Positions 8,824-10,820 of a DNA stretch of 12,159 bases are shown here, piece by piece; positions within the stretch are counted from its first letter, which is position 1, and each line of letters begins with the position of its first letter. Position numbers and translations under genes: made by a program. This DNA comes from Chloroflexota bacterium (lineage in GTDB: Bacteria > Chloroflexota > Dormibacteria > Dormibacterales > Dormibacteraceae), in the NCBI GenBank assembly GCA_005880345.1, contig VBGE01000033.1, forward strand, positions 1 to 12,159. Reading direction: 5' to 3'. The notes beneath the pieces were generated by a model. The model saw only the letters and a program-made list of their open reading frames with translations. It was not told the origin of the DNA and did not search any database.

Positions 8824-8985
8824 GTGGAGCTTGTCGCCAGTCGGGTGGTTGAGTCACGCGCTGCCCTGGAATCGGACGGGGCGGGCCACTGCTTCGCGGC
8901 CTGGGCCGTGCTCCTGACCACCTTGGGCATGATGCTGTTGCCCGGCGCCATTGCACTGTTCGTGCTGCTGGGGCTTCTGGGATGA
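8824..8985 (+). CDS. Small single-pass membrane protein (53 aa), translationally coupled to the kinase
   Basis: GTG at 8824 is preceded by AAGGAAGG (8807-8814) with 9-base spacing and opens 53 codons ending in TGA at 8983-8985. Residues 1-22 are polar (ELVASRVVESRAALESDGAG). Residues 23-52 form one long hydrophobic stretch with FAAWAVLLTTLGMMLLPGA and then LFVLLGLLG, so it is predicted to cross the membrane once with almost no tail. The stop overlaps the ATG of the Ser/Thr kinase fusion by 4 bases (ATGA at 8982-8985), the usual form of translational coupling. I recognise no family. A role as membrane partner or regulator of the cytoplasmic kinase fusion is inference. It is short enough to be missed by gene callers with a length cut-off. 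Confidence 0.68.
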   Translation: MELVASRVVESRAALESDGAGHCFAAWAVLLTTLGMMLLPGAIALFVLLGLLG

Positions 8986-10820
8986 ACGTCCGCGAAGGCG
9001 TCACCCTGGGTCCTTACCGGGTGATGGAGCGCATCGGCCGCGGCGGCATGGCCGCCGTCTACCGGGCCTATCACCCCGGGCTCGACCGCTACGTGGCGAT
9101 CAAGGTCCTGCCTGACTTCTTCGCCGACGACCCAAGCTATCAGGAACGCTTCCAGCAAGAGGCGCGGTCGGTGGCGCGGCTCAAGCACCCGAACATCCTC
9201 GAGGTGTTCGACTTCGGCTATGAGGACGGCAACGCCTACCTGGTCCTCGAGCTGATCGAAGGTGGCACGCTAGGCGATCGCATCGGCAAGCCGATGGAGC
9301 TCCGCGAGGTGATCCAGCTTCTCGAGCCGATCGCAAGTGCGCTCGATCACGCGCACGCGCATGGCATCTTGCACCGCGACATCAAGCCATCCAACATCCT
9401 GCTGCAAAAGGACGGGACGCCTGTCCTGGCCGACTTCGGCCTCGCCAAGATGGCCGGCTCCATGCGCAGGCTGACCGGGTCGGGCACGGTGATGGGCACG
9501 CCGGAGTACATGTCGCCAGAGCAGGCGGCGGACGACCCGGTCGGGCCCTCCTCGGACCGGTACTCGCTGGCGGTGGTCGCCTACGAGCTGCTGACCGGAA
9601 GGGTCCCGTTCCAGGCGGACACGCCCGCCGCGGTCCTGCTCGCCCAGGTGACCAAGGCAATGCCGGCGACCCGCGAGCTCCGCGGCGAGCTGTCGGCTCA
9701 CATCGAGGACGCCCTGCGGCGCGGCCTGGCCAAGATCCCCGAGGACCGATATGACTCTGCGGCAGCGTTTGTGGCGGCCCTCAAGCCTGCTGCCTGGCCC
9801 AGCCGGAACAGAGACGAGTCGAGCATGCCGGTGACCCAGCGGCTGGCCCGCCCCGAGCGGGTCCCTGTCGTGCTGGTCGTCGACGACGGTGCGGCCAACC
9901 GGGAGCTGATCGAAGCCTGCCTCGCCGGGGTCGAGTGCCAGGTGCGCACCGCGGCCGACGGGCCTTCGGCACTGCAGGCGATTCAGACCTCACTGCCCGA
10001 CCTGGTCCTGCTCGACGTGCAGATGCCCCGCATGGACGGCTACGAGGTGTGCCGGCGGATCAAGTCGCAAGCCGCTTCTCGGCTCCTGCCGGTTGTGATG
10101 ATCACCTCCCTGGATCGGACCGCCGACCGCGTGCAGGCGCTCGAGGCCGGCGCCGACGACTACATGACCAAGCCGGTCGATCGGGTCGAGCTCGTCGCTC
10201 GCGTCCTCTCGGCACTTCGTCTGAAGAGCGTTTACGACTCGCTGGACAGCGCCGAGCAGGTCATCTTCGCGCTGGCAGCGGCAGTCGAGGCCAAGGACCC
10301 ATACACGGAGGCGCACACCCAGAGGGTGGCCGACGCGGCGCGGCGGATCGGGCGCCGCATGGGCCTGCCCGAATGTGACCTCGACTCGCTTTATCGCGGC
10401 GGCTTGATCCATGACATCGGCAAGATCGGCGTGCCGGACGCGATCCTGCTGAAGCCCGGCCCGCTGGACTCGGAAGAGACGATGGCCATGCACCTGCACC
10501 CGATCATCGGCGAGAACATCGTCGCCCCTCTGCGCTCGGGCGCCGGCCTCCTGCCGATCATCCGCCATCACCACGAGAACTTCGACGGCTCCGGGTATCC
10601 CGACCGTCTCGCCGGCGCGAGCATCCCGAGACTCGCGCGCATCGTCTCCGTGTGCGATGCGTACGACGCGCTGGTCAACGACCGGCCCTATCGCCAGCGC
10701 AAGTCACAGGACGAGGCGCTGGCCATCCTTCGCGGGGGCGCGAAGCGGCAGTGGGACCCCGAGGTGGTCGAGCTCTTCATAGGTGAGGTGCCGGTTCTGA
10801 CCAGCCTGGGCGCCGCCTGA
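8982..10820 (+). CDS. Ser/Thr protein kinase - receiver - HD-GYP phosphodiesterase fusion
   Basis: This is a 612-residue soluble protein with three signalling domains. The Hanks-type kinase (about 10-268) has the glycine loop GRGGMAAVY (19-27), Lys41 in VAIK, Glu60, HRDIKPSN (131-138), DFG (151-153), MSPE (177-180) and an Asp192 motif, so it should be active. After a linker (about 270-293) the receiver (about 295-410) has acidic Asp301-302, phosphoacceptor Asp345, Thr375 and Lys397. The HD-GYP domain (about 425-603) keeps His445, HD 477-478, His506, HHE (530-532), GSGYP (536-540) and CDAYDAL (558-564), so cyclic-di-GMP hydrolysis is expected. Receiver plus HD-GYP alone is the RpfG arrangement; the kinase added in front is unusual. 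There is no membrane segment. It is translated by overlap with the small membrane gene upstream, and a membrane histidine kinase gene follows 10 bases downstream. Confidence 0.92.
   Translation: MNVREGVTLGPYRVMERIGRGGMAAVYRAYHPGLDRYVAIKVLPDFFADDPSYQERFQQEARSVARLKHPNILEVFDFGYEDGNAYLVLELIEGGTLGDRIGKPMELREVIQLLEPIASALDHAHAHGILHRDIKPSNILLQKDGTPVLADFGLAKMAGSMRRLTGSGTVMGTPEYMSPEQAADDPVGPSSDRYSLAVVAYELLTGRVPFQADTPAAVLLAQVTKAMPATRELRGELSAHIEDALRRGLAKIPEDRYDSAAAFVAALKPAAWPSRNRDESSMPVTQRLARPERVPVVLVVDDGAANRELIEACLAGVECQVRTAADGPSALQAIQTSLPDLVLLDVQMPRMDGYEVCRRIKSQAASRLLPVVMITSLDRTADRVQALEAGADDYMTKPVDRVELVARVLSALRLKSVYDSLDSAEQVIFALAAAVEAKDPYTEAHTQRVADAARRIGRRMGLPECDLDSLYRGGLIHDIGKIGVPDAILLKPGPLDSEETMAMHLHPIIGENIVAPLRSGAGLLPIIRHHHENFDGSGYPDRLAGASIPRLARIVSVCDAYDALVNDRPYRQRKSQDEALAILRGGAKRQWDPEVVELFIGEVPVLTSLGAA

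Follow-up and report, generated by a model that had tools for sequence, protein, structure and literature searches.

In the RpfG/RpfC pair, the signal passes from a histidine kinase to a receiver aspartate and from there to an HD-GYP domain, which is the standard logic of RpfG-type regulators. The locus presented here resembles such regulators in its receiver, the helix that follows, an intact HD-GYP domain and an adjoining histidine kinase gene, and a paralogue in the same genome (L002) has exactly the receiver–HD-GYP (REC-HD-GYP) form. It differs from them in carrying a Hanks-type kinase of about 270 residues in front, and in its partner, a multi-pass hybrid kinase with two receivers that is accompanied by free receiver genes and is not RpfC. 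Compared with kinases of the PknB/PknA type, the fusion protein gives no PASTA match and its kinase domain is soluble in the structural model. The same three Pfam domains are found in proteins from Gemmataceae (P0242, encoded at L153, and P0122–P0241, the order having been checked in one). These differ from our fusion in the stretch that precedes the kinase (about 90 residues in the 756-aa record, 200 in the longest frame), a Glu at the position of Y441, frequent loss of the HDxGK Lys, and a separate origin. New architectures in Planctomycetes were reportedly described by Mahajan et al. in 2020.

The nearest functional parallel found in the literature is PA3346 of Pseudomonas, in which, according to the sections of the article used here, a receiver gates an enzyme of Ser/Thr phosphorylation under a histidine kinase (PMC12189002). 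PA3346 differs from the fusion in being a phosphatase without a Hanks kinase, and the same sections mention no HD-GYP domain in its chain (PMC12189002). In the parts consulted, a review of c-di-GMP sensory proteins refers to thousands of architectures tabulated in its supplements (PMC8846402), and a kinase classification names other domains tethered to kinases (PMC2877116). No description of a kinase–receiver–HD-GYP chain was found in a full-text literature search, the terms of which were possibly too narrow and which did not extend to tables S1 and S2 of PMC8846402, File S5 of PMC2877116 and Fig. 8 of PMC11032199, where the architecture might be listed. An earlier, sequence-only reading of this DNA knew of no described system with this architecture; the literature search agrees with it, but some Gemmataceae records already bear both activities in the automatic annotation "response regulator RpfG family c-di-GMP phosphodiesterase/serine/threonine protein kinase".

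Results

Three signalling domains are encoded in a single frame

The whole stretch of DNA analysed, hereafter the window, is 12,159 nucleotides long. The features considered here are the following:

7049..8716, + strand: gene for a PAS-GAF-GAF-LuxR-type regulator, the conserved upstream neighbour (Pfam)
8824..8985, + strand: unannotated small ORF, 53 aa from a GTG, with one hydrophobic helix; its TGA overlaps the start of the kinase (ATGA)
8982..10820, + strand: whole gene for the Ser/Thr kinase–receiver–HD-GYP protein, 612 aa (ORF and Pfam)
9015..9752, + strand: PknB-like kinase domain, residues 12–257 (K41, E60, HRD 131–133, DFG 151–153, T173)
9795..9866, + strand: linker, residues 272–295, variable, with a conserved T-R-R-L patch at 285–288 (alignment and model)
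9870..10205, + strand: receiver domain, residues 297–408 (D301, D302, phospho-acceptor D345, T375, K397; Pfam and alignment)
10275..10766, + strand: HD-GYP domain, residues 432–595 (H445, HDIGK 477–481, H506, HH 530–531, DGSGYP 535–540, D559; Pfam and alignment)
10831..12159, + strand: first part of a histidine kinase gene, truncated at the end of the contig (HisKA at residues 371–439)

The fusion gene runs from ATG to TGA without interruption over 612 codons (8982–10820, + strand). When the gene is divided into nine blocks of 68 codons, third-position G+C ranges from 0.84 to 0.96, an evenness that gives no sign of a joined frame. Pfam matches to the protein were Pkinase at 12–257 (7.5e-48 for the protein), Response_reg at 297–408 (4.3e-30) and HD_5 at 432–595 (1.4e-35). 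Against the Stk1/PASTA model (NF033483) the kinase scored 306 bits, below the cut-off of 450, and no PASTA repeats were matched in the Pfam scan of the chain.

A search of 5.8 billion proteins yielded 7997 scored candidates, and 7906 passed E≤1e-3. Of these 7906 matches the 120 best, among them the window's own protein, are 591–616 aa long and 76–100% identical, and all contain Pkinase, Response_reg and HD_5. The fusion protein is therefore no singleton, its architecture being common to at least 119 other database proteins. These 119, the window and seven more distant loci were combined in an alignment of 127 rows, two of which come from one genome.

All 127 rows have the VAIK Lys, C-helix Glu, HRD and DFG of Hanks-type kinases, and the domain is a predicted Hanks-type, PknB-like Ser/Thr kinase; invariant in it are K41, E60, H131, R132, D133, K135, N138, DFG, T165 and T173. 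Likewise, the acidic pair (D301, D302), the phospho-acceptor Asp (D345, within LLDVQMP), the Thr/Ser (T375) and the Lys (K397) of response-regulator receivers are present throughout. The HD-GYP domain has the HDxGK, HH and DGxGYP motifs that accompany a receiver in RpfG-type proteins, with H445, H477, D478, K481, H506, H530, H531 and GYP invariant in the 127 rows, and D559 in a 47-row alignment. Recent kinship accounts for part of this invariance, since 119 of the 127 rows share 76% identity or more with the window. The earlier reading had proposed one chain of three domains with intact catalytic and phosphoacceptor residues (K41, HRD, DFG, D345, HD 477–478 and GYP 538–540) around an RpfG-like core of receiver and HD-GYP, and the frame, the Pfam domains and the motifs bear it out at each of these positions.

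In eight gene pairs, dN/dS was 0.058–0.155 for the kinase, 0.026–0.127 for the receiver and 0.043–0.152 for the HD-GYP domain. All three domains are thus under purifying selection, and the kinase is as constrained as the other two. Of the parts compared, the linker varies most (mean entropy 1.57 bits versus 0.56 for the kinase). Its borders are kept (L267, P269–W272 and P295 in 127/127 rows, P273 in 124/127), and at columns 285–287 the residues T, R and R occur in 108, 119 and 110 of the 127 rows, respectively, the window itself having Q286.

An AlphaFold model based on a diverse alignment exhibited three confident domains (mean pLDDT 89; pTM 0.54) and a loose linker at 274–289 (pLDDT below 50), whereas a model on a shallow alignment had a mean pLDDT of 69. 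The kinase domain fills the matches listed by Foldseek and VIA for the model. Because the model leaves the packing of the domains open, it provides no direct sign of a contact between kinase and receiver.

Within its phylum, the fusion was detected in one family

The window belongs to a 1.95 Mb assembly that is 63% complete, and its named relatives are assemblies labelled 'Candidatus Dormibacteraeota', 'Dormiibacterota' or 'Chloroflexi bacterium'. At E≤1e-90 the fusion protein is matched in 34 of 110 genomes of the class. The kinase plus receiver chain was detected at this threshold in 22 of the 42 genomes of the window's family (Dormibacterota/Chloroflexota), comprising all 17 genomes of its genus and five more (G226, G230, G236, G237 and G238); in three of the 22 (G087, G210 and G238) the contig ends within or before the HD-GYP part. 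In the remaining 68 genomes of the class no kinase fusion was matched at E≤1e-90, an ambiguous contig-edge fragment in G203 aside. At E≤1e-75, no match from kinase to HD-GYP was found outside the family among 400 genomes of the phylum, nor among 294 Planctomycetota (15 of which had REC-HD-GYP matches), and no match of any kind among 195 Myxococcota; as these cut-offs miss divergent cases, L153 (6e-66) included, they do not show absence beyond the family.

In the REC-HD-GYP tree, no branch length separates the fragment in G203 (L142, 1–789, + strand) from a row of the window's genus. Since that genome is filed in another family, the contig is perhaps misplaced or misbinned.

A hybrid histidine kinase adjoins the fusion gene

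The histidine kinase gene begins with a GTG at 10831, 10 nt past the stop of the fusion gene, and a simple scan found six hydrophobic segments in its product. Five complete orthologues (L010, L012, L014, L145 and L143) are 860–871 aa long, and all five have HisKA, HATPase and two receivers; N-terminal hydrophobic segments numbered seven in three of the four scanned and six in the fourth.

Neighbouring genes, picked by a codon-composition rule, were compared over 23 fused loci, consisting of the window, 19 distinct sequences from the REC-HD-GYP tree and the cut loci L017, L090 and L146, with L016 standing for the identical L143. Among the 20 with at least 1 kb downstream, the histidine kinase gene directly follows the fusion gene in 16 and comes after one receiver gene in a seventeenth (L016). 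It was not seen in L018, where the contig ends, nor in L113 and L147. These last two are divergent fused copies, with neither a histidine kinase nor a LuxR gene within 1.5 kb on either side (L113) or within 5.9 kb downstream and 3.6 kb upstream (L147). Ten loci (L009–L015, L019, L020 and L145) combine an immediately adjacent histidine kinase gene with over 5 kb of downstream sequence, and in all ten two free receiver genes come after the histidine kinase. Upstream, the PAS-GAF-GAF-LuxR gene is present in 19 of 22 loci.

The spacing suggests that fusion and histidine kinase genes are co-transcribed. A simple scan, which is weak evidence, detected no promoter- or terminator-like site between them at 10650–11000, nor on the plus strand at 8600–9100. 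The downstream histidine kinase is the likely cognate partner of the fusion receiver, judging by this arrangement. This likely partner had escaped the sequence-only reading.

The hydrophobic ORF overlaps the kinase start in the same manner in 19 of the 23 fused loci, the exceptions being L016, L113, L144 and L147. An ATG whose next codon starts with A produces a stop/start overlap of this kind by itself, which leaves the hydrophobic frame as the one notable feature. In L133 and L134, too, hydrophobic ORFs lie ahead of REC-HD-GYP. The last 40 codons evolve fast (dN/dS 0.32–1.28, eight pairs). Such an ORF could encode a membrane partner of the kinase.

Elsewhere in the window, a 753-aa frame (3801–6062, − strand) joins the front of a histidine kinase to a lactonase-like propeller, as identified from the counterpart in L012, where the two are separate genes (1878–2954 and 660–1793). 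By eye, the ATPase-like part of this histidine kinase lies in another frame (5039–5566), and the gene looks like it has a frame break.

Sister loci carry the module without the Ser/Thr kinase

REC-HD-GYP, histidine kinase and receiver genes, in that order and without a Ser/Thr kinase, were found in G027, G227, G234, G236, G237 and G238 (loci L132, L141, L138 and L135–L137, respectively). In G228 (L133) and G225 (L134) the order is LuxR, small hydrophobic ORF, REC-HD-GYP and histidine kinase. Fused and kinase-less forms coexist in G236, G237 and G238. No kinase remnant was detected by tblastn at 1e-3 in 12 kinase-less loci (L132–L142 and L150), of which L142 is uninformative, as its contig edge precedes the point where a kinase would begin. 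That sister genera have the module with neither the kinase nor a tblastn remnant of it marks the Ser/Thr kinase as an optional addition. The paralogue L002 in the window's own genome is also kinase-less and about 68% identical over REC-HD-GYP; no histidine kinase lies beside it in the stretch examined.

In L134 (7571–9808, + strand; G225) the REC-HD-GYP frame continues into the histidine kinase. The resulting 745-aa frame has Response_reg, HD_5 and HisKA, placing regulator and partner kinase in one frame.

A quick tree groups the kinases from all 23 fused rows in a single clade (SH-aLRT 99), and the nearest to it are two free kinases of the same family. The REC-HD-GYP tree requires four changes between fused and unfused states when the cut row L142 is scored as kinase-less, and three without this row. 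On these trees, the kinase is an add-on acquired within the family, and the copies that lack it either lost it or never had it; the fused/unfused tree does not separate one gain with later losses from a duplication that preceded the gain.

The same domain order has a second origin in Gemmataceae

The L153 locus of a Planctomycetia assembly (G244) has an 866-aa frame with Pkinase at 200–462, Response_reg at 507–618 and HD_5 at 680–846. A search with this protein gave 7524 matches among 7998 scored; the best 120 of the 7524 all have the three domains, and some are named Gemmataceae. All of these 120 rows have an intact HRD and DFG, and 119 retain K41; the HDxGK lysine is present in 73 and replaced by Met in 45, and Glu occupies the position of Y441 in 116. 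The lysine loss and the Glu at the Y441 position suggest that some of these proteins may have altered phosphodiesterase activity. At E≤1e-120 the L153 protein matched one of 284 Planctomycetota genomes, its own.

In a tree of 37 rows, in which 12 of the 120 proteins of the Gemmataceae set were used, the Gemmataceae receiver plus HD-GYP forms one clade, and the window's group falls among the REC-HD-GYP proteins of Chloroflexota. A single origin of all the fused rows costs 55 log units and was rejected (AU p 0.000734). On the evidence of this tree, the kinase–REC–HD-GYP order arose at least twice, and in the alignment the HD-GYP domains recruited by the two origins differ at the position of the PmGH Glu considered below. 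Such recurrence argues that joining the three domains is useful. Scanning four neighbours at a single Gemmataceae locus revealed no histidine kinase domain, although a divergent PAS-GAF gene at this locus, truncated where the contig ends, could be a histidine kinase.

Two further frames carry other kinase fusions. The one in a Poribacteria assembly (L154, 418–2139, − strand) is a Ser/Thr kinase–PilZ fusion (Pkinase 47–294, PilZ 453–550), which would be another physical link of Hanks kinases with c-di-GMP. The other, in a Vicinamibacteria assembly (L155, 382–2025, − strand), is a kinase–receiver–LytTR DNA-binding fusion, with the Ser/Thr kinase ahead of a different response regulator.

The HD-GYP domain and its cyclic-di-GMP context

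Among solved structures, the best match to the HD-GYP domain was 5z7c, named 3'3'-cGAMP-specific phosphodiesterase 3 (4.8e-37), followed by 4mcw (2.6e-32), which we take to be the c-di-GMP enzyme PmGH, and 4r8z, named cyclic di-GMP phosphodiesterase (2.8e-27). In PmGH, a Glu four residues before the first metal-binding His binds a third metal. The fusion lacks this trinuclear-type Glu, having Y441 instead (Y in 86, F in 39 and H in 2 of the 127 rows). Five GGDEF matches were found in the window's genome, three of them with an intact GGDEF/GGEEF and RxxD site, which makes a c-di-GMP cycle plausible. In the same 63% complete genome neither EAL nor PilZ was matched, so that HD-GYP proteins are the only such phosphodiesterases detected in it and no PilZ-type c-di-GMP receptor was seen. 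The c-di-GMP breakdown that the sequence-only reading ascribed to the domain is a predicted activity, the best-matching solved structure being named for 3'3'-cGAMP.

Discussion

Our preferred reading, to which we give close to an even chance, is that the protein is an RpfG-type regulator driven by the histidine kinase of its operon, in which the added PknB-like kinase forms a second, receiver-linked branch. A soluble PknB-like Ser/Thr kinase would have joined the N-terminus of an RpfG-type response regulator. The membrane-bound hybrid histidine kinase encoded next door would sense a signal and pass phosphate to D345, and the phosphorylated receiver would switch the HD-GYP domain through the conserved helices 401–421 and 424–438. 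The HD-GYP domain would then degrade a cyclic dinucleotide, most likely c-di-GMP. The Ser/Thr kinase, on the other side of the receiver, would most likely be a second catalytic branch, for Ser/Thr phosphorylation, tied to the receiver state. The kinase-less sister modules fit the RpfG logic of this scheme; at the same time, the absence of the kinase from sister loci implies that the module can do without it, which counts against the scheme. So do the open domain packing in the model, the lack of a histidine kinase gene beside the divergent copies L113 and L147 and among the Gemmataceae neighbours scanned, and the missing PilZ match in the incomplete genome.

Going further, one receiver phosphorylation on Asp might switch both the kinase and the c-di-GMP phosphodiesterase, possibly in opposite senses, making the chain a hub of three signalling languages that arose separately in Dormibacterota and in Gemmataceae. 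A central receiver would be able to control an enzyme on either side, which would account for the repeated evolution of the arrangement. The sequence-only reading had likewise suggested that the receiver might gate both enzymes, or that the kinase might phosphorylate its own HD-GYP part. We consider this extension possible, though it is appreciably more doubtful than the receiver-linked second branch itself.

The kinase might instead act as an input, autophosphorylating or phosphorylating its own linker or the receiver/HD-GYP part, in cis or within a dimer. The T285-R-R columns, conserved within an otherwise variable linker, are what a cis phosphosite could look like, the activation loop keeps T165 and T173 in 127/127 rows, and the overlapping hydrophobic ORF, present in 19 of 23 loci, could bring the kinase a membrane signal. 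However, T285 is not invariant and the small ORF evolves fast, and we regard an input role as rather unlikely. Equally unlikely is its consequence, namely that the phosphodiesterase integrates signals from the histidine kinase and the Ser/Thr kinase.

Even less probable is that the domains are merely tethered, each working alone in a fusion that serves co-expression or co-localisation. The flexible linker, the undefined packing in the model and the existence of kinase-less forms in the same operon context are consistent with mere tethering, but the kinase–receiver–HD-GYP order arose twice, which makes chance tethering less likely, and the linker borders (L267, P269–W272 and P295) are conserved in 127/127 rows.

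The rank of 5z7c above 4mcw and 4r8z would fit an HD-GYP domain whose main substrate is not c-di-GMP but 3'3'-cGAMP or a different cyclic dinucleotide. Specificity is not decided by the rank of sequence matches, though, and the genome has its own GGDEF frames with standard motifs, so we consider such a substrate improbable. Finally, although the window comes from a fragmented, 63% complete assembly, the sequencing or assembly artefact envisaged in the sequence-only reading, or a dead kinase or HD-GYP domain, has a negligible chance, given the even codon G+C, the occurrence of the chain in 22 genomes of the class and, among the database matches listed, in 119 further proteins (three domains in all of the best 120 matches), the invariant active-site residues and the low dN/dS in every domain.

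Taken together, comparative sequence analysis presents the fusion as a real, conserved and twice-evolved combination of known parts, for which the proposed mechanism is plausible. The named hosts are uncultivated soil lineages, in which, to our knowledge, signalling has hardly been studied at the bench. Two-component, Hanks-type and cyclic-di-GMP networks are usually treated as separate systems that touch by cross-talk. A chain that combines them, with what appears to be its own histidine kinase and with kinase-less counterparts, would offer a clean system in which to ask whether they control one another and, if so, which way round.
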